From the NCBI RefSeq assembly GCF_000193375.1, contig NC_015315.1:814622-878621 (forward strand): a DNA stretch of 64,000 nucleotides, written 5' to 3'. Positions 11,868-20,840 of this stretch are shown here, one piece after another. Numbering within the stretch: the first letter of the stretch is position 1; every line of letters starts with the position of its first letter. Source of the DNA: Thermoproteus uzoniensis 768-20. GTDB lineage: Archaea; Thermoproteota; Thermoprotei; Thermoproteales; Thermoproteaceae. The notes beneath the pieces are model-generated. The model was given only the letters and a program-made list of their open reading frames with translations. It did no database searches and was not told the DNA's origin. The position numbers and the translations under genes are program-made.

Positions 11868-12281
11868 TTAAGGCTTGCAGAGCGACCTCAGCGCGTCGGG
11901 CCTCAGGAGATCCCTCACGGATATTACGCCGTACAGCCTCCCGCCCTTGGTCACCACCAGATGCCTCACGTTGTACCTCCACATGAGCTCCGCGGCCCTC
12001 GACAGCGGCTCGTCGGCCTCGACCGAGATCACCCCGCGCGACATGAAGGCCTCCACCGGCGTCGAGAGGGCCATCCTCATGTTCAGCGCCCGCACCACGT
12101 CCCTCTCGGATATTACGGCCAGCGCGACGTCGGGCTCCTCGCGCCTGACGACGACGAGGGCGCCTATGTTGTGCTGGGCCAGCCTATCCACGGCGTCGAG
12201 CAGAGTCTCGTCGGGCAAGATCGTGACGGGAGGCCTCCTGACGAGGTCCCCCGCCTTCAATCCTCCGGCGGCGGCCACCAT
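11868..12281 (-). CDS. CBS-domain pair protein
   Basis: The 137-residue protein is essentially one Bateman module (two CBS domains). ISERDVV near residue 71 and ISVRDLL near 121 are the typical motifs closing each CBS unit. CBS pairs bind adenine nucleotides or SAM and regulate partner proteins. Its start overlaps the preceding CBS gene by 25 nt. The order PEP carboxylase, CBS, CBS suggests that it modulates carbon metabolism in response to energy state (inference). Confidence 0.85.
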   Translation of the reverse strand: MVAAAGGLKAGDLVRRPPVTILPDETLLDAVDRLAQHNIGALVVVRREEPDVALAVISERDVVRALNMRMALSTPVEAFMSRGVISVEADEPLSRAAELMWRYNVRHLVVTKGGRLYGVISVRDLLRPDALRSLCKP

Positions 12282-12676
12282 GTCTTCTCGCCCAGGTGCT
12301 TCAACGCTGGGTCCTCGAGGAGGTCCCTCACGGATATCACGCCCACGAGGACGCCCGAGTCGTCGACCACGACGAGATGCCTTATGCCCCTCCCCCTCAT
12401 CTTCCTCAACGCGACGTATATGTCCTCGTCGGCCCTCGCCGTGACGAGATCCCCCATAGTCGCTATGGACCTCACCGCGTCTTGCAAGCCGGCGCCCCTA
12501 GCCAGGCCCCGCACTACGTCCCTCTCGGTCACTATCCCCACGGGCCTCCCCGCGCCGTCGACGAGGACCACCGAGCCTATGTTGTTCTCGGCCATGAGCC
12601 TCACGACGTCCCCCACCGAGTCCTCGGGCCTCGCGGTCACGGGGCGCCTCTTCACTAGATCGAGCACCTTAGGCAT
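12257..12676 (-). CDS. CBS-domain pair protein directly after PEP carboxylase
   Basis: The 139-residue, two-CBS-domain protein has VTERDVV near 69 and ISVRDLL near 119. It begins one nucleotide after the PEP carboxylase stop and overlaps the next CBS gene, so all three are almost certainly co-transcribed. It is a paralogue of that neighbour and of the CBS protein coupled to 4-hydroxybutyryl-CoA dehydratase. The ligand is probably an adenylate, but it cannot be read from sequence alone. Confidence 0.85.
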   Translation of the reverse strand: MPKVLDLVKRRPVTARPEDSVGDVVRLMAENNIGSVVLVDGAGRPVGIVTERDVVRGLARGAGLQDAVRSIATMGDLVTARADEDIYVALRKMRGRGIRHLVVVDDSGVLVGVISVRDLLEDPALKHLGEKTWWPPPED

Positions 12677-12677
12677 A

Positions 12678-14048
12678 TCACCCCAGGAACTTCCTGTACT
12701 TGCCCATGGCTATGACGTTGGACTCGCTCCTGGGCATCCTCAAGAGCGCCTTGTAGGCGGCGCTCTCCCTAGGGCTAATCCCCATGTAGTCCATGGCCTC
12801 CTTCACCGTCCGCACCACCTCCTCGCCCAGATACCTCGCCGCGACCTCCTCGTCGAAGAACTCGGAGTCGTACTCCCACTCCTTCCTCAAGGTGGGGAGG
12901 GCCTTCAAGACCTCGTCGAGCTTGTCCTCCTTGGCCAGCCTCACGACGTAGGGGGCGTCGAGGTATATGGGGGGAAGCCCCATGGCGTACCAAGCAGACG
13001 TGTAGACTATGGCGCGGGGCATGTTGACCGCGCCGTCTTGCGTCAAGAACTGCCGGCCGTAGATCTTCCAGCTCACTCTGTCCCTCGTCGAGGGCACGAG
13101 CCGCGCCACCTCCACGAGCACGTTCACGTACTTGGCCACAAGCGCCTTGTAGCTCGCGGCGGCCTCCCCTATGAGCCCCTCCACCCCCTCCACCTTGCGG
13201 GGGGAGACGCAACACGCGTTGAGTATGGAGTCCTTGACCTTGATATAGTCGTCGTAGGACACGTCGTATCTGACGGCGGATTGTATCGTGGCCGTGTGGT
13301 AGCCCGAGTACTGGAAGACCTCCAGGTGCGCCAGCATGTAGTTGTTGAGGGCGCCTCTGAAGGGCGGCGACCCCATGCCCAATATGGGGAGTATCCTCAC
13401 GCCCATCTCCTCCGCCTTCCTGGCCCTGGAGAGCACGGCGGCTATCGCCAGCGCCGAGGCTATATGGCCGTACTTAACCGCCGAGTCGGACTTCCCGAGG
13501 AAAAGCCTCACGGGCCCCTCCCCCCTCTCCTTGGCTATCTCCGCCAGCAGGGACTCGAACTTCAGCTGGGCGTAGGCGTCCTCTATGAGGGGTATCACCT
13601 CTATGTCCGAGAGGTCGAGCCCCGTCTCCTCGCGGTACGCCTGCACCTTCTTCCTCAACATGCGGCTCACGAGGAGGACGGTGTCTAGGTCCTCCACCAT
13701 GGGCAGGACGACCCACTTGACGGCTTGAGTCCCCATATACTTCTCGGAGAAGTAGTTGGCGACTACGGCGGCCTCCAGCGCCAGCATGGCGCGGTCGAAG
13801 TCCTCCAGCTTGGGGTTGGGCAGGCGGGGGGTTATGAAGAACTTCTCCCCCAGCTTGACCCCCGCCGCGTAGGCCTTCATGACGATCTCCTTGGGCTGGC
13901 TAAACGGCGTGGTCTTGCCCTCGTAGTCCACCATGACCTCCTCGCAGCCGTACGCGGTGTAGGCGACGAGCGCCTCGTCGACCTCCTCGCCCGCGGTTAT
14001 CTTCACCGTCGTGTCGGGATGTTGCGTGCACATGAGGCGGGGGACCAT
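12678..14048 (-). CDS. ppcA: Archaeal-type phosphoenolpyruvate carboxylase
   Basis: The 456-residue protein begins MVPRLMCTQHPD, the family hallmark, and has the length of archaeal PEP carboxylase (about half the bacterial enzyme). It fixes bicarbonate onto PEP to give oxaloacetate, the second carboxylation of the dicarboxylate/4-hydroxybutyrate cycle. A TATA box (AATATAAAC on the plus strand, 14068-14076) is centred 24 nt upstream. The gene heads a run with two CBS proteins and is divergent from the alcohol dehydrogenase gene. Confidence 0.93.
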   Translation of the reverse strand: MVPRLMCTQHPDTTVKITAGEEVDEALVAYTAYGCEEVMVDYEGKTTPFSQPKEIVMKAYAAGVKLGEKFFITPRLPNPKLEDFDRAMLALEAAVVANYFSEKYMGTQAVKWVVLPMVEDLDTVLLVSRMLRKKVQAYREETGLDLSDIEVIPLIEDAYAQLKFESLLAEIAKERGEGPVRLFLGKSDSAVKYGHIASALAIAAVLSRARKAEEMGVRILPILGMGSPPFRGALNNYMLAHLEVFQYSGYHTATIQSAVRYDVSYDDYIKVKDSILNACCVSPRKVEGVEGLIGEAAASYKALVAKYVNVLVEVARLVPSTRDRVSWKIYGRQFLTQDGAVNMPRAIVYTSAWYAMGLPPIYLDAPYVVRLAKEDKLDEVLKALPTLRKEWEYDSEFFDEEVAARYLGEEVVRTVKEAMDYMGISPRESAAYKALLRMPRSESNVIAMGKYRKFLG

Positions 14049-14067
14049 GTGACGGGAATTAACGAGT

Positions 14068-14076
14068 AATATAAAC
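14068..14076 (-). promoter_or_regulatory. TATA box of the PEP carboxylase operon
   Basis: The minus strand reads GTTTATATT, centred 24 nt before the ATG in an AT-rich 127-nt divergent spacer shared with the alcohol dehydrogenase gene. Confidence 0.6.
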
Positions 14077-14148
14077 TTTATATCTTTACTTAATTACTAC
14101 ATAAAAAATAATTATAAATATAAATTAAGAAATCTATTGTTGAAAAAG

Positions 14149-14157
14149 TTTAAATAT
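14149..14157 (+). promoter_or_regulatory. TATA box of the alcohol dehydrogenase gene
   Basis: TTTAAATAT is centred 23 nt before the ATG at 14176. This supports that ATG over the alternative ATG 39 nt upstream, which lies before the TATA box. Confidence 0.6.
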
Positions 14158-14175
14158 GGCGGGCCTCGCCGCGGC

Positions 14176-15264
14176 ATGCGGGCGGCCGTACTGCACAAGC
14201 ACAACGAGCCCCTCGTCGTTGAGGAGGTCGACGTGGGGCGGCCGCGGGAGGGCGAGGTGAGGCTGGCCGTTAGGTCGGCCGGGGTCTGCCACAGCGATTT
14301 GTACGTGCTGGAGGGCGCGACGCCAGTGCCTCCGCCTGTCGTGCCCGGTCACGAGGCTGTGGCGGAGGTGGTCGAGGTGGGGCCCGGCGTGTCTTGGCTC
14401 CAGCCTGGCGACGTCGTGGTGACCAGCTTCATATGGCCGTGCGGCAGATGCAGGAACTGCGCCAGGGGCATGGAGAACTTGTGCGAGAGGTTCTCAGAGG
14501 TGAGGCTCAAGGGAGTCCTCCTCGACGGCACGACTAGGCTCAGGCTGAGGCGGACGGGGGAGGAGTTGAGGGTGTTTCTGGGAGGGCTCTGGGCCGAGGA
14601 GGCTGTAGTCCCGGCGTCTGCCGTGGCGAAGTTGCCCAAGCCGCTCCGCGACAGGCCCGAGATGGCCATGTTGGGCTGCGCGTACTTGACCGCGTACGGG
14701 GCCGTGGTGAACTCGGGCTCGGTGCAGCCCGGCGACGTGGTGGCGGTGGTGGGCACCGGCGGCGTGGGGCTCGCGGCTGTGCAGGTGGCTAAGGCTGTGG
14801 GGGCTGAGGTTATCGCTATTGGGAGGAACCCGGAGAAGCTGAAGCTGGCCAGAGAGATGGGGGCCCACGCCGTCGACGTGAGGGACGGCGCGGTGGAGGC
14901 GGTGAGGGCGCTGACCGGCGGGAGGGGGGCCGACGTGGTGATCGAGGCGGTCGGCTCGGACTCCACGGTGGATCTCTCGGTGGAGATCGCGGCCCCCGGC
15001 GGCAGAGTCGTCCTCGTGGGCCTCATGCCTGTGGGCAAGAGGGCGCCGCTACACGTGGCGAGGGTGGTCAGAGGGGGCATAGCAGTCGTGGGTAGCTACG
15101 GCGCGAGGCCGAGGGTGGATCTGCCCAAGGTGGTGGCGCTCGCCGAGAAGGGGGTTTTGAGGCCGGAGCTCCTCGCGAGGGATTTCTACAAGCTGGACCA
15201 GATAAACGAGGCCGTGGAGGCCCTACGGAGCGGCAGATCCATAAGGCCGATCGTGTTGCCGTGA
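14176..15264 (+). CDS. Zinc-dependent alcohol dehydrogenase (candidate succinate semialdehyde reductase)
   Basis: The 362-residue medium-chain dehydrogenase has the catalytic zinc site (Cys38 in GVCHSD, GHE at 58-60), the structural zinc cysteines 89, 92, 95 and 103, and a GTGGVG nucleotide-binding motif. Alcohols or aldehydes are interconverted with NAD(P)H. Its position among 4-hydroxybutyrate-cycle genes makes reduction of succinate semialdehyde to 4-hydroxybutyrate the likely reaction (inference). The start is set by the TATA spacing, and the stop overlaps the GTG of the 2Fe-2S gene. Confidence 0.85.
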   Translation: MRAAVLHKHNEPLVVEEVDVGRPREGEVRLAVRSAGVCHSDLYVLEGATPVPPPVVPGHEAVAEVVEVGPGVSWLQPGDVVVTSFIWPCGRCRNCARGMENLCERFSEVRLKGVLLDGTTRLRLRRTGEELRVFLGGLWAEEAVVPASAVAKLPKPLRDRPEMAMLGCAYLTAYGAVVNSGSVQPGDVVAVVGTGGVGLAAVQVAKAVGAEVIAIGRNPEKLKLAREMGAHAVDVRDGAVEAVRALTGGRGADVVIEAVGSDSTVDLSVEIAAPGGRVVLVGLMPVGKRAPLHVARVVRGGIAVVGSYGARPRVDLPKVVALAEKGVLRPELLARDFYKLDQINEAVEALRSGRSIRPIVLP

Positions 15265-15566
15265 TCGTCACGTTGCGGGTGAGGAGGACGCGGGGCGGCG
15301 AACGATATATACAAATATATAGGGTAGATGTAGACGACTTGAGGACGACGGTCCTAGACCTATTGATAAAGGTAAAGGATAATTTAGATGGATCCCTCGC
15401 GTTCAGATACGCGTGCAGGATGGGCTTGTGCGGCGCCTGCACCGTGAAGATAAACGGAAGGCCTAGGCTCGCGTGCGCCACGAAGATCGCCGACGTGGGC
15501 ACCGACATCACGGTAGAGCCCGTGGCGGACAAAGTCGTGAAGGACCTAGTCGTCGACGGTCAGTAG
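15261..15566 (+). CDS. Small 2Fe-2S protein resembling the N-terminal domain of fumarate reductase/succinate dehydrogenase subunit B
   Basis: The 101-residue protein has plant-type cluster cysteines at 52, 57, 60 and 72 (CRMGLCGAC, then LAC), as in the first half of SdhB/FrdB. The C-terminal domain carrying the 4Fe-4S and 3Fe-4S centres is absent. It starts with GTG inside the stop of the alcohol dehydrogenase gene and runs convergently into the flavoprotein gene, overlapping its end by 7 nt. It could be the sole electron carrier of a reduced fumarate reductase. Confidence 0.8.
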   Translation: MIVTLRVRRTRGGERYIQIYRVDVDDLRTTVLDLLIKVKDNLDGSLAFRYACRMGLCGACTVKINGRPRLACATKIADVGTDITVEPVADKVVKDLVVDGQ

Positions 15567-17305
15567 GCCCTCACCTCGGGCGGCCATCTGGTTATCCTCA
15601 CGGGCTCCCACCTCACGACGATCCCCTCGCCGTATTTATAGGCCACGGTGTGGACGAGCCACTTGGCGTCGTCGCGGGCGGGGTAGTCCAGCCTGTAGTG
15701 CGCCCCCCGCGACTCCCTTCTGAAATACGCGCCGAGGAGCACCACGTGGGCGGCGAGCGCCATGCCGTCGAGCTCCACGAGCTCCTTCAACTCCATGTTG
15801 TAGACCCTCCCGACGTCGTGGACGTTTATCTGGCCTATCTGGGCCGAGGCCTTTGTCAGCTCCGAGATGGCCCTCTCCAGCTCCGAGCCGTGTCTGAAGA
15901 CGCCGGCCCCCCGATGTAGGGCGTTCTGTATCGCGGCCTTGACCTGCCCCAACGAGATCCCGCCGGTCTCCCTATGGAGCAACTTGTCGAATATCCTCCT
16001 CTCCTCCTCTTCGTATATCAGCTTGATCTCGGCGTCGGGGGCGGGGTCTTGCGGCGCCTCCATGGCGTATTTCGCGGCGGCTTCTCCTGTTAGTCTTCCC
16101 CATACGGAGCATTCGCTTAGGGAGTTGGAGCCGAGCCTATTTGCGCCGTGGACGCTCACAGCCGCGGCCTCGCCAGCAGCCCATAACCCTCTAACCCAAG
16201 AACCGTCAGAAGCAAGAACACGGCCGTACGTGTCAGTGTGGATCCCGCCCATGAAGTAGTGGACTGCCGGCGCCACGGGTATTAGGTCCTCGGATGGGTC
16301 TATGCCGGCGTAGGTCTTCACGACCTCTAGGAGCAGGGGGAGCCTCTCCTTGAGGCGTTCTCTGTCCACATGCCGCAGATCCAGACCCACGTAGCACATG
16401 CCGCTCTCCTCGTGGACGAACCCTCTGCCGGCCTCGCACTCCGACACTATAGCCCTCGACACTATGTCGCGGGGCGCCAGCTCCATCTTCTGGGGGGCGT
16501 AGCGTTTCATGAAACGCTCCCCCAGCCTGTTCACTAGGTATCCGCCCTCCGCCCTCGCCGCCTCGCTTATCAATATGCCGCTCGGCACAAGCGCCGTCGG
16601 GTGCCACTGCACGAACTCCATATCCTTAAGGGCAAGCCCCGCCCTGAGGGCGAGGCCCCACATCTCGCCGGTGTTGGCGTAGCCCATGGTGGTCAGCTTG
16701 AACATCCTCCCGCCTCCCCCCGTCGCCACGACCCCCGCCCTCCCCCTGAAGAGCTTGAGCTCGCCCCTCCTCAGGTCCAGCGCGATGACTCCGAGGAACC
16801 TCCTCCGCTTAACAACGAGCCTAGTTGCCAGATGCTCCTCGTAGAGCTCCACGGGGAGCTCCCTCACGTGCCTATACAGCGCGGACATAATGTAGAAACC
16901 CGTCTTGTCCTTCGCAAAGGCGGTTCTGGGCCTCGACATACCCCCGAAAAGCCTCTGGGCTATCCTCCCGTCGGGGGCGCGGGTCCACGGCACGCCGATT
17001 TTCTCGAGGTAGAGTATCTCCCTCGGCGCCTCCTCGGCCAACAAGACGGCGGCGTCTTGGTCCACCAAGAAGTCGCCTCCCTTGACTGTGTCGTAGGCGT
17101 GTAGCTCGTAGCTGTCCCCCGTCGCCTCGGGGTAGAGGACGCCGGCCATGCCCCCCTCGGCCGCTATGCTGTGGGACCTCGGGCCCGACACCTTGGTCAC
17201 GACGCATATCTTGAGCCCTCTGCCGGCCTCCGCCGCGGTGGCCGCCGCCCTGAGGCCCGCCAGCCCCGACCCTATAATGATCACATCACAATATATATAT
17301 TCCAT
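15560..17305 (-). CDS. frdA: Fumarate reductase / succinate dehydrogenase flavoprotein subunit
   Basis: The 581-residue protein has an N-terminal GSGLAGL dinucleotide-binding motif (12-18), a RSHS segment at 43-46 where the covalent-FAD His is expected, AAEGGMAG, and the substrate region HPTALVPSG...EAARAEGG. In the carbon-fixation cycle it reduces fumarate to succinate. No membrane-anchor or full iron-sulfur subunit gene is adjacent. The only candidate partner is the small convergent 2Fe-2S gene, so other subunits must be elsewhere or the enzyme is soluble. Confidence 0.9.
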   Translation of the reverse strand: MEYIYCDVIIIGSGLAGLRAAATAAEAGRGLKICVVTKVSGPRSHSIAAEGGMAGVLYPEATGDSYELHAYDTVKGGDFLVDQDAAVLLAEEAPREILYLEKIGVPWTRAPDGRIAQRLFGGMSRPRTAFAKDKTGFYIMSALYRHVRELPVELYEEHLATRLVVKRRRFLGVIALDLRRGELKLFRGRAGVVATGGGGRMFKLTTMGYANTGEMWGLALRAGLALKDMEFVQWHPTALVPSGILISEAARAEGGYLVNRLGERFMKRYAPQKMELAPRDIVSRAIVSECEAGRGFVHEESGMCYVGLDLRHVDRERLKERLPLLLEVVKTYAGIDPSEDLIPVAPAVHYFMGGIHTDTYGRVLASDGSWVRGLWAAGEAAAVSVHGANRLGSNSLSECSVWGRLTGEAAAKYAMEAPQDPAPDAEIKLIYEEEERRIFDKLLHRETGGISLGQVKAAIQNALHRGAGVFRHGSELERAISELTKASAQIGQINVHDVGRVYNMELKELVELDGMALAAHVVLLGAYFRRESRGAHYRLDYPARDDAKWLVHTVAYKYGEGIVVRWEPVRITRWPPEVRAY

Positions 17306-17335
17306 ATCGCCGCTATAAACATCGTTTATTAATGT

Positions 17336-17347
17336 TTTTATTCATAT
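17336..17347 (-). promoter_or_regulatory. ATATGAATAAAA element upstream of frdA
   Basis: The minus strand reads ATATGAATAAAA beginning 42 nt before the frdA ATG, in the AT-rich 68-nt spacer 17306-17373. The same 12-mer stands before the 4-hydroxybutyryl-CoA dehydratase gene. It is a possible regulator site or an extended BRE/TATA region. Confidence 0.35.
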
Positions 17348-17373
17348 TATTAAATAAAGTAAAATTATAATTA

Positions 17374-17799
17374 TTAATCTGCGGGCGGCGCCATCGCGTG
17401 CTCCGCCTCCTCGGGGCCGGCCGCCGCGGCCGCCAGCTGGGCCGCCTCCCTGACGATATCCCTAACCGAGACCACGCCGTACAGCTCGCCGCCTTTAACG
17501 ACGACGAGGTGTCTAATGCCTCTCCTGGCCATCAGCCTCGCCGCCTCCAATACGTCGGACTCTGCGTCGATCGTGACCACGTCCCTAGTGGCGATGAGGG
17601 CCGCCGGCCTCTCAGGGCTGAGCCCCGCGGCAACCGCCCTCACTATATCGCGCTCCGACACGACGCCGTACAGCCTCCCGCCCTCCACCAAGACGAGGAG
17701 GCCTATACGCCTCTTGGCCATTATGGAGGCCGCCTCCCTTATGGTTATGCCCGGCTCGGCCGTTATGGGCGGCCTGCTGGCTATGGCCCCCACCTTCAT
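17374..17799 (-). CDS. CBS-domain pair protein coupled to 4-hydroxybutyryl-CoA dehydratase
   Basis: The 141-residue protein has two CBS domains, with VSERDIV near 67 and VSVRDIV near 116, plus an Ala-rich tail. The ATG at 17799 overlaps the dehydratase stop as ATGA, so the two are translationally coupled. It is a paralogue of the two CBS proteins behind PEP carboxylase. A regulatory or chaperone role toward the dehydratase in response to nucleotide levels is inferred from linkage only. Confidence 0.85.
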
Positions 17800-19298
17800 C
17801 TCTCCGCCTCCGCCGGTCTGTGGGGCTCGGCCTTGGCGTCGGCCGGCGCCTCGGCCTTCAGCCCCGCCAACCTGCTCGCGATGGCCTCGGCCCTCTGCAG
17901 GTCGTAGATCCTCTGTATCGATATGCGTTGGGCCTGCGGGCTGCCCGCGCCGTGGACCGACTCGATCAGATAGGCTACGCTCAAGCTCGTGTTCTCGAGG
18001 AGGCGGAGGAGCCTTAGCCTCTCCTCGGCCGGGAACTCGGGGACTCCCTGTAGGTACTTCTCCAGGAGAGGCCTCAGCTCGGGGTTTCTGAAGTCGGCCT
18101 CGCTGGGGGCCGTGCCGAGGAGGCCGCCGGCTATGTCGTGGGCTAGGCGGGATATCTCGTAGGGGAACCTGGCCACTAGATGCTTCGTGATGTTGGCGTA
18201 CATGGGGTTTACCCACCACCCCCCGTCCCTCAACAGCTTCCTCGCCTCCCAGCTCGCGGCGAGGCCGGCGGAGTACATGGCCTCGTTGAGGAAGGCCATC
18301 TCGGTCAGCTTCTCCTGGACGTGCGGCTTGTCGGCGATCCCCAGCCGCCTCGCGAGGCCGTAGGAGGCGCCGATTATCACGTCGCCGAGGCCCGACTTAC
18401 AGCCGGCGTAGCCCTGTCTGTGGTAGTTGGAGAAGATCTCGACGAATTGGGACGCCCACCTCCAGTCCTTGTACAGGAACACCCTCTCCCAGGGGACGAA
18501 GACGTCGTCGAGTATGAGAAGCCCCTCGTGGTTGAAGGCGTAGGGCAGGCCGTCTATCTCCCCGCCCTCGAGCCTCCTCGCGTCGTTCAACTGCCTGCCG
18601 ACGACCACCTTCACGCCCGGCGTATCTAGAGGTATGGCGAACGACACGGCGTACTCGGCGTCTTTCTCAGTCATGGCCCTAGTCGGCATGACGACCACCT
18701 CGTCCACCACGGCGACGCCCGTGATGTTGGCCTTGGCCCCCCTCACCACTATCCCGTCGGCCCTCTCCTCGACCACGTGGACGTAGGCGTCTCTGTTGGG
18801 CTGCTCGCTGGGCCTCAACGTCCTGACGCCCTTCACGTCGGTCATGGCGCCGGCGAGCGCCAAGTCCCTCCTCTGGACGTATTTGAGGTATTCGAGGAAT
18901 CTGTTGAAGTACTCCTTCCTCCCCTCCCTCTCCGCTATCTTGCCGGTGACTATGTAGAGCGTGTTGAGGGCGTCCCACCCCACGCAGCGCTGGAAGCAAG
19001 TGCCGACCTTGTGGCTCAGCTTCCTCAAGAGCTTCACCTTCGCCACGAGGTCCTCGGGGCCTTGGTGGATGTGGACGAATCTGTTGACCTCCTCCCCTAT
19101 GAAGGGGCTGTAGGCCCTCGCGAGGCCTCTCGTGTCCTCCTCGAAGGCCGCGTCGAAGGTGGCCTTGAAGGCCTTCACCGACGGCTTGAGGAACGGGTGC
19201 GTCGTGACGTCGTCGACTCTCTTCCCGAGCACGAAGACCTCCACGTGTTTCCTATCCCTAAGCCCCTCCACGTACTGGTCGCCGGTCCTGAGCCCCAT
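17796..19298 (-). CDS. abfD: 4-hydroxybutyryl-CoA dehydratase
   Basis: The 500-residue enzyme converts 4-hydroxybutyryl-CoA to crotonyl-CoA by a radical mechanism using FAD and a 4Fe-4S cluster; it is the key enzyme of the 4-hydroxybutyrate cycles. The unusual cluster ligands known from Clostridium (Cys99, Cys103, His292, Cys299) are matched here by Cys101, Cys105, His293 and Cys300. The acyl-CoA-dehydrogenase-like fold and length fit. An extra Ala/Glu-rich tail of about 20 residues ends the protein. A TATA box sits 24 nt before the ATG. Confidence 0.95.
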
Positions 19299-19424: not shown

Positions 19425-20840
19425 ATGGCGGATATAGTGGTGGTCAACCCCGCCACCGAGGAGGTCCTCGCCGTTATTCCGGCCGCCGGGAGGGAGGACG
19501 TCAGGCGGGCCGTCGACGAGGCCGAGGAGGCCTTCCACAAATGGTCGGAGACTCCCTTAAGGGAGAGGGGAAGGGTCTTGTTGCGGGCGGCCCAGTATAT
19601 AGAGCAGAGCGCCGAGGAGCTCGTGAGGATTCTCGTCTCCGAGTCCGGGAAGCCCATAAGGGACGCGAGGGCTGAGCTGAGGAGGGCCGTGGAGATTTTC
19701 AGATCCAGCGCCGAGGAGGCGCGGTACGTACTGGAGGGGAGGATCCCGAGGGCGGACGCCTACGAGTACCCGCCGGGCAACGAGCAGAGGATAGTCCTGG
19801 AGGCCAGAGAGCCCGTGGGCGTGGTGGCGGGGGCCTTGAGCTACAACAACCCCGCCTCGACCTTCGCCCACAAGATCGCGCCGGTGATAGCGGCCGGCAA
19901 CACGGCGGTGGTCAAGCCGTCCACCCACACGCCCCTCACCGCGTTGAGGATGGCCGAGCTCCTCAGAAAGGCCGGCGTCCCCGCGGGCGTCGTCGAGGTG
20001 GTGGTCGGTAGCGGGGAGGAGGTCTTCGACGAGCTTCTCGAGAACCCCAAAGTCGCCGGCATATCCTTCACGGGCAGCACCGCGGTGGGCCTCCAAGTGG
20101 CGGCCAAGGCGGCGGGGCGGGGCAAGAAGTTCATGATAGCTCCCAGCGGCTCCGATCCGGCGATAGTCTTCGCCGACGCCGATCTGGAGCGCGCCGCGGC
20201 GACGATAGCTAGGGCTAGGTTCGAGAACGCGGGCCAGAACTGCAACGCCACCAAGCGCGTCTTCGTGGAGAGGCCGGTCTTCGAGAAGTTCCTCGACGCT
20301 CTGTTGGGCAAGGTCGCCTCGATAAAGGTCGGCGAGCCTATGGACGAGGCGACCGATATGGGCCCCTTGATATCGGAGAAGATGGTGAGGGCCATGGAGG
20401 GCTTTGTGGCCGACGCGCTTTCGAGAGGCGGGGAGTTGCTGTACGGCGGCAGGAGGGCGGCCAGGAAGGGCTATTTCTTCGAGCCCACCGTGGTCAAGTT
20501 CGCCGACGGGTCGGCGGAGGCCAGAGTGTTGCGGGAGGAGGTCTTCGGCCCGGTCCTCCCCGTAGCTCCGTTCGACGACGAGGAGGAGGCGGTGGAGCTG
20601 GCCAACGCCACCCAGTACGGCCTCCAGGCGTCGGTCTTCACGGCGGATTACAGAAAGGCCTTTAGGGTCGCCAGAGCGGTGAGGGCCGGCGCCGTGATGG
20701 TGAACGACTCCACCAGAGTCCGCCTCGACGCCTTGCCCTACGGCGGCGTTAAGATGTCCGGCTTCGGCTGGAGGGAGGGCGTCAGATCCACGATGTACTA
20801 CTTCACAGAGCCCAAGTACTACGTGCTGAACGTCGGATAG
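19425..20840 (+). CDS. Aldehyde dehydrogenase family protein (candidate succinate semialdehyde dehydrogenase)
   Basis: The 471-residue protein has the NAD(P)-binding aldehyde dehydrogenase fold, the oxyanion Asn region SYNNP (139-143), FTGST (215-219) and catalytic Cys273 in GQNC. It is divergent from 4-hydroxybutyryl-CoA dehydratase, so the likely reaction is succinyl-CoA reduction to, or oxidation of, succinate semialdehyde. The general-base motif ELGG of the family is replaced by APSG at 239-242. Loss of that Glu would disfavour hydrolysis and fits a CoA-acylating role (inference). Confidence 0.85.
   Translation: MADIVVVNPATEEVLAVIPAAGREDVRRAVDEAEEAFHKWSETPLRERGRVLLRAAQYIEQSAEELVRILVSESGKPIRDARAELRRAVEIFRSSAEEARYVLEGRIPRADAYEYPPGNEQRIVLEAREPVGVVAGALSYNNPASTFAHKIAPVIAAGNTAVVKPSTHTPLTALRMAELLRKAGVPAGVVEVVVGSGEEVFDELLENPKVAGISFTGSTAVGLQVAAKAAGRGKKFMIAPSGSDPAIVFADADLERAAATIARARFENAGQNCNATKRVFVERPVFEKFLDALLGKVASIKVGEPMDEATDMGPLISEKMVRAMEGFVADALSRGGELLYGGRRAARKGYFFEPTVVKFADGSAEARVLREEVFGPVLPVAPFDDEEEAVELANATQYGLQASVFTADYRKAFRVARAVRAGAVMVNDSTRVRLDALPYGGVKMSGFGWREGVRSTMYYFTEPKYYVLNVG

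Follow-up and report, generated by a model that had tools for sequence, protein, structure and literature searches.

Two CBS-domain proteins encoded with one PEP carboxylase isoform of Thermoproteaceae: a possible adenylate-sensing regulatory pair

We found that genes for two small CBS proteins, CBS-B and CBS-A, directly follow the gene for one isoform of archaeal-type PEP carboxylase (PEPC1) in all 14 Thermoproteaceae genomes whose downstream side was readable, across both Thermoproteus and Pyrobaculum. Based on these sequence comparisons, we tentatively propose, with confidence just short of even, that CBS-B and CBS-A may be a dedicated, co-translated regulatory pair of the CO2-fixing PEPC1 in this family and that they may sense adenylates.

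The window that we analysed is a stretch of 64,000 nucleotides from Thermoproteus uzoniensis 768-20 (genome G000, a single contig of 1,936,063 bp). The genes that concern us are listed below; the reductase and fumarate reductase roles follow Table 1 of PMC12794621.

10706..11845, minus strand: thiolase, encoded on the strand of CBS-A and 22 nt downstream of it
11868..12281, minus strand: CBS-A, two CBS domains, 137 aa
12257..12676, minus strand: CBS-B, two CBS domains and the C-terminal tail KTWWPPPED, 139 aa
12260..12280, minus strand: codons of the WWPPPED tail of CBS-B, overlapping the CBS-A start region
12678..14048, minus strand: PEPC1, archaeal-type PEP carboxylase (PF14010, PEPcase_2), the isoform whose clade carries the CBS pair
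14137..15264, plus strand: Zn-dependent alcohol dehydrogenase family, succinic semialdehyde reductase, divergent from PEPC1
15261..15566, plus strand: 2Fe-2S protein, putative fumarate reductase small subunit
15560..17305, minus strand: putative fumarate reductase flavoprotein
17374..17799, minus strand: CBS-C, two CBS domains, 141 aa, with an ATGA overlap with the HBD stop
17796..19298, minus strand: HBD, 4-hydroxybutyryl-CoA dehydratase (Pfam HpaB_N/HpaB)
19425..20840, plus strand: aldehyde dehydrogenase family, succinyl-CoA reductase, divergent from HBD

The initial annotation of this DNA had described three paralogous two-CBS proteins, and this description was accurate. All three contain two CBS domains and score far above the Pfam cut-off of 24 bits (103, 95 and 89 bits). 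They are of the standalone two-domain CBS type (PF00571), with both domains over the curated cut-off, and the Pfam scan found CBS domains only, with no DNA-binding domain in any of the three. The gene arrangements were also as described. CBS-B starts 1 nt after the PEPC1 stop, and CBS-A overlaps CBS-B by 25 nt if it starts at ATG, or by 4 nt (TTGA) if it starts at an alternative TTG, so that the overlap figure depends on the start codon. Either start implies coupled translation of CBS-B and CBS-A.

Conservation of the PEPC1-CBS-B-CBS-A trio

We searched for this gene order in 45 genomes and then read the neighbourhoods. The trio was present in G000, G028-G033, G035-G037 and G039-G042. The PEPC1 gene of G038 is cut by a contig end; its flank is unreadable and this genome stands outside the 14. 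Among the 14 are Pyrobaculum sp. WP30 (G033) and Thermoproteus sp. CP80 (G039); the species names attached here to G-numbered genomes other than these two and G000 are our presumption. In the 14 readable genomes, the spacing between PEPC1 and CBS-B ranges from -4 to +38 nt, and that between CBS-B and CBS-A is -25, -22 or -4 nt. Eight of the 13 intact trios offer an alternative CBS-A start (TTG, ATG or GTG) by which the gene would overlap the CBS-B stop only slightly. G030, G031 and G040 have the upstream start and no short-overlap option, G039 has CTG at the short-overlap position, and G037 has the 4-nt overlap only. The thiolase gene adjoins CBS-A in a T. tenax-like genome as well.

The trio is never split, though the remaining cycle genes are arranged differently from genome to genome. 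For instance, HBD lies 0.5 Mb away from the trio in G041 and on its other side in G028; in some other genomes, HBD is beside succinyl-CoA reductase. The regulatory pairing with PEPC that had been suggested was never lost among relatives that keep the cycle (14/14 readable), it is confined to one PEPC isoform, and it is broken only in G032, a genome with decaying cycle genes.

This confinement is clear from the second PEP carboxylase of the window's genome, PEPC2 (C1:1434943-1436310; loci L081 and L174), which is 52% identical to PEPC1 and has no CBS gene beside it. Additionally, no CBS gene was found within about 1.5 kb of 50 other archaeal-type PEPC loci (47 with a readable downstream flank), which comprised PEPC2 copies, other families of the order, other classes, Sulfolobaceae-like genomes, two Ignicoccus-like genomes and one Pyrolobus-like genome. 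In the PEPC tree, PEPC1 forms one clade (99/99) that holds all 13 CBS-linked copies tested and the truncated G038 copy. Five residues (F100, C279, M343, Y406 and R440) are invariant in PEPC1 and never occur in the other PEPCs compared. We regard these residues, picked out by sequence comparison, as first candidates for a contact surface.

The CBS proteins fall into separate orthologous groups in a tree of 96 proteins: CBS-A (100/98), CBS-B (100/99) and CBS-C (99/98). The window's own CBS-C was omitted from this tree because its open frame is long, but the proteins of the C group are its best matches. Five genomes from two genera (G028, G032, G037, G040 and G041) are united in both the PEPC1 and the CBS-A trees, and the CBS-B tree is compatible with this grouping. 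PEPC1, CBS-B and CBS-A thus seem, from these trees, to have been inherited or transferred together as a unit. The distance-matrix correlations among the three (0.82-0.90) were obtained without a control and are not counted as evidence. CBS-A and CBS-B are under purifying selection; dN/dS for CBS-A, CBS-B and CBS-C lies at 0.07-0.28 for closer pairs and reaches 0.49 for a distant one.

G032, which we take to be a P. oguniense-like genome, offers a natural case of decay. CBS-B has an in-frame TAG and CBS-A has a frameshift, and succinic semialdehyde reductase and the fumarate reductase flavoprotein are both frameshifted, while PEPC1, HBD, CBS-C and succinyl-CoA reductase remain open. P. oguniense has been described as having its PEPC outside the cycle cluster and as having no succinic semialdehyde reductase (PMC12794621). 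The same paper gives P. arsenaticum as a heterotroph that has retained PEPC1. We looked for relaxed constraint on the G032 PEPC1 as a mark of lost partners and did not see it; there was no excess change compared with other members. The decay fits a role of CBS-A and CBS-B in the autotrophic use of PEPC1, but it concerns a single lineage, and sequencing error is possible.

One could argue that these arrangements are a frozen neighbourhood, that is, that gene order has been conserved in one family with no functional coupling. All cases do come from one family and partly from one cluster, and gene order tends to be kept among close relatives. However, the trio was kept through rearrangements and through apparent transfer between genera, its reading frames overlap, the CBS-B tail is near-invariant (see below), and in G032 the two CBS genes and two cycle genes are all disrupted. 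We find this explanation improbable. The pairings are more than chance because the PEPC trio occurs in 14/14 readable genomes and the HBD-CBS-C pair shows an identical ATGA overlap in 7/7.

A second possibility is that CBS-A and CBS-B, though encoded in the PEPC1 operon, have their effect elsewhere. They could control transcription of the cycle genes, target a different enzyme encoded in the cluster, or buffer adenylates in general. The linkage would then reflect common expression and not contact with PEPC1. A regulator of the whole cluster would give the same linkage and the same decay, and standalone CBS proteins can have several targets, as shown by DarB, which has both Rel and pyruvate carboxylase as binding partners (PMC8822347). 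The orthologous groups are also relevant to this point. The CBS-A and CBS-B families are not exclusive to PEPC1, because the CBS-A group has one unlinked member and the CBS-B group has three sisters unlinked to PEPC. The unlinked CBS-A (L229:3487-3906) is in G027, a P. aerophilum-like genome without PEPC1 and CBS-B, where it survives alone between ETF-like genes and an acyl/acetate-CoA ligase gene that is apparently broken into several frames. Against action elsewhere, the three proteins have no DNA-binding domain, and the CBS pair tracks PEPC1, not the other cycle genes. We judge action elsewhere to be rather unlikely.

Two further arrangements of CBS genes were observed. In G038, a B-like and an A-like CBS gene form a tandem at a distance from PEPC (L228:3812-4649), with a different C-terminal tail, WPTTDFESPP. 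In the P. islandicum- and P. neutrophilum-like genomes, a third CBS gene is convergent with CBS-A (L071:12117-12566 and L072:3207-3644). We considered whether this third gene, in G030 and G031, could be a displaced CBS-C and rejected the idea, as it belongs to another clade in the CBS tree.

Ligand motifs and the tail of CBS-B

Every intact CBS-A, CBS-B and CBS-C has an S/T-x-R-D motif in both of its CBS domains. These are versions of the S/T-x-x-D ribose/phosphate motif found at the end of each domain, occurring in the forms S/T-E-R-D and S-x-R-D. In the CBS family, the S/T-x-R-D motif binds AMP-like ligands. For CBS-B, the AlphaFold2 model shows an ordinary CBS pair with a mean pLDDT of 86, and the tail is of low confidence (blocks of 66 and 55). 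The best PDB fold match of this model is PAE2072 with AMP bound (2rif; TM 0.83), a protein that also has the S/T-x-R-D motif.

From these features, the most likely ligand would be AMP/ADP/ATP, with SAM/MTA possible and cyclic di-AMP unlikely. It is conceivable that the CBS pair does regulate PEPC1 but responds to a different adenosyl ligand, such as SAM or MTA, instead of energy charge. The adenosyl motif does not tell these ligands apart, and MJ0100 with SAM/MTA (3kpb) is among the fold matches. On the other hand, the AMP-bound PAE2072, from a Pyrobaculum, is the closest match by fold and is also among the two best by sequence, and we consider SAM or MTA sensing improbable. Cyclic di-AMP was rejected as a ligand: it is unlikely because the DAC cyclase (PF02457) was found in 0/19 family genomes, with positive controls.

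Twelve of the 13 intact CBS-B orthologues end in WWPPPE[D/E], and the remaining one (G037) ends in WWPKPEE. The broken CBS-B copy of G032 still has the WWPPPE[D/E] tail, and the unlinked CBS-B sisters have WQPPD-type tails. We judged it unlikely that the tail is conserved simply because its codons overlap the start of CBS-A. The tail appears to be conserved as protein because its proline codons vary synonymously; moreover, G037 keeps the tail though its CBS-B and CBS-A overlap by only 4 nt. These patterns make the WWPPPE[D/E] tail a candidate docking peptide.

CBS-C and 4-hydroxybutyryl-CoA dehydratase

CBS-C (17374-17799, minus strand) overlaps the stop of HBD (17796-19298, minus strand) as ATGA, in agreement with the initial annotation. 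Seven genomes (G000, G027, G028, G032, G037, G040 and G042) have CBS-C directly after HBD with the identical overlap. The expectation that relatives with the cycle would keep this pairing did not hold. CBS-C is absent beside HBD in 6 of 13 family members (G029, G030, G031, G033, G036 and G041), and these include P. neutrophilum- and P. islandicum-like genomes, which keep the cycle and have an HBD without an adjoining CBS-C. Five of these six members group in a single clade of the HBD tree (100/99), a pattern that points to few losses or to a later gain of CBS-C.

We take G027 to be a P. aerophilum-like genome. It keeps the HBD-CBS-C pair (L087), and its HBD is the closest to that of the window, which suggests that HBD and CBS-C moved together between genera. 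P. aerophilum is a heterotroph (PMC12794621). CBS-C is tied to HBD and not to the complete cycle, because the heterotroph-like G027 keeps the pair. We therefore see CBS-C as accessory, a probable partner of HBD much as CBS-A and CBS-B would be partners of PEPC1, and as lying outside the core cycle.

None of 32 HBD loci in other families had an adjoining downstream CBS gene on the same strand. In a Sulfolobaceae-like genus (g73, family f29), a longer CBS protein is encoded convergently to HBD in six genomes (L187, L190, L194, L195, L196 and L201). G019, from another family of the order, has an HBD that shares 79% identity with the one in the window, lacks an accompanying CBS-C and was possibly acquired by transfer (L090); Vulcanisaeta souniana has been described with such an HBD (PMC12794621).

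The wider suggestion of a control layer for the dicarboxylate/4-hydroxybutyrate cycle as a whole has to be given up. In the Ignicoccus-like and Pyrolobus-like genomes, no CBS gene was found next to either PEPC or HBD. The CBS genes do not accompany the cycle genes in all users of the cycle and are not part of its core machinery.

A model for CBS-B and CBS-A

We have proposed a model that addresses how CBS-B and CBS-A might control PEPC1. CBS-A and CBS-B would most likely assemble into a four-CBS (Bateman) heteromer, which may dock on PEPC1 via the WWPPPE[D/E] tail of CBS-B. The AMP/ADP/ATP ratio would then switch PEPC1 activity through the CBS pair, although both the ligand and the direction of the switch are presumed. 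In this way, PEP would be committed to oxaloacetate only when energy allows. We believe that action of the CBS pair on PEPC1 is the simplest explanation because the pair is made together with an oxaloacetate-forming carboxylase, as a comparison with DarB and CBS-CP12 suggests. A bolder version is that the heteropair is an obligatory, tail-docked, energy-sensing subunit of a PEPC isoform specialised for autotrophy; it would then be the first dedicated allosteric unit known for a 4-hydroxybutyrate CO2-fixation cycle. We see this version as possible but somewhat doubtful.

Several known systems resemble the proposed pair. DarB of Bacillus subtilis (CbpB, YkuL) is likewise a standalone two-CBS protein, and it binds and activates an anaplerotic, oxaloacetate-forming carboxylase, pyruvate carboxylase (PMC8822347). 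However, DarB is a single protein, responds to cyclic di-AMP and also acts on a second target, whereas the PEPC operon encodes two CBS proteins; the DAC cyclase expected of DarB-like regulators is missing from all 19 family genomes. CBS-CP12 of cyanobacteria uses AMP-binding CBS domains to act on a CO2-fixation cycle enzyme, inhibiting the activation of phosphoribulokinase (PMC9406205), and CBS-C has a weak sequence match to its structure (5nmu). Unlike CBS-A, CBS-B and CBS-C, it is a fusion with CP12 that works on thioredoxin-linked phosphoribulokinase activation in the Calvin cycle; here both the enzyme and the cycle are different, and the Pfam scan found no CP12 segment in the three proteins, which places them outside the CBS-CP12 family. 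In CBS-pyrophosphatase, CBS domains confer inhibition by AMP/ADP and activation by ATP (PMC11172384), but these domains are within the enzyme chain and not on separate proteins. PAE2072 of Pyrobaculum aerophilum (2rif/2rih, with AMP) is similar in size, two-CBS architecture and S/T-x-R-D motifs, but belongs to another orthologous group (locus L154). AcuB, from acetoin utilisation in Bacillus/Geobacillus, is also a small CBS protein and has been solved with AMP, ADP and ATP, but it is larger, at about 200-220 aa. We know of no linkage of AcuB to a carboxylase.

A CBS sensor acting on a metabolic enzyme is thus a known kind of regulator; a PEPC isoform with a CBS pair encoded in its own operon is new as far as we have seen. 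A 2010 paper on regulation in T. neutrophilus reportedly describes an 18-kDa promoter-binding protein. Our literature search, with two papers of Ramos-Vera et al. in J. Bacteriol. lying outside it, found no mention of the CBS genes of the cycle cluster.

Hardly anything is known about how the dicarboxylate/4-hydroxybutyrate cycle is throttled at the enzyme level in archaea. Our hypothesis is directly testable, as it involves three small, presumably heat-stable proteins, and PEPC2 provides a natural negative control. If it is true, the CO2-fixing PEPC of these archaea has a built-in energy sensor, in parallel to DarB with pyruvate carboxylase and to CBS-CP12, and CBS modules would be a recurrent solution for the control of carbon fixation.
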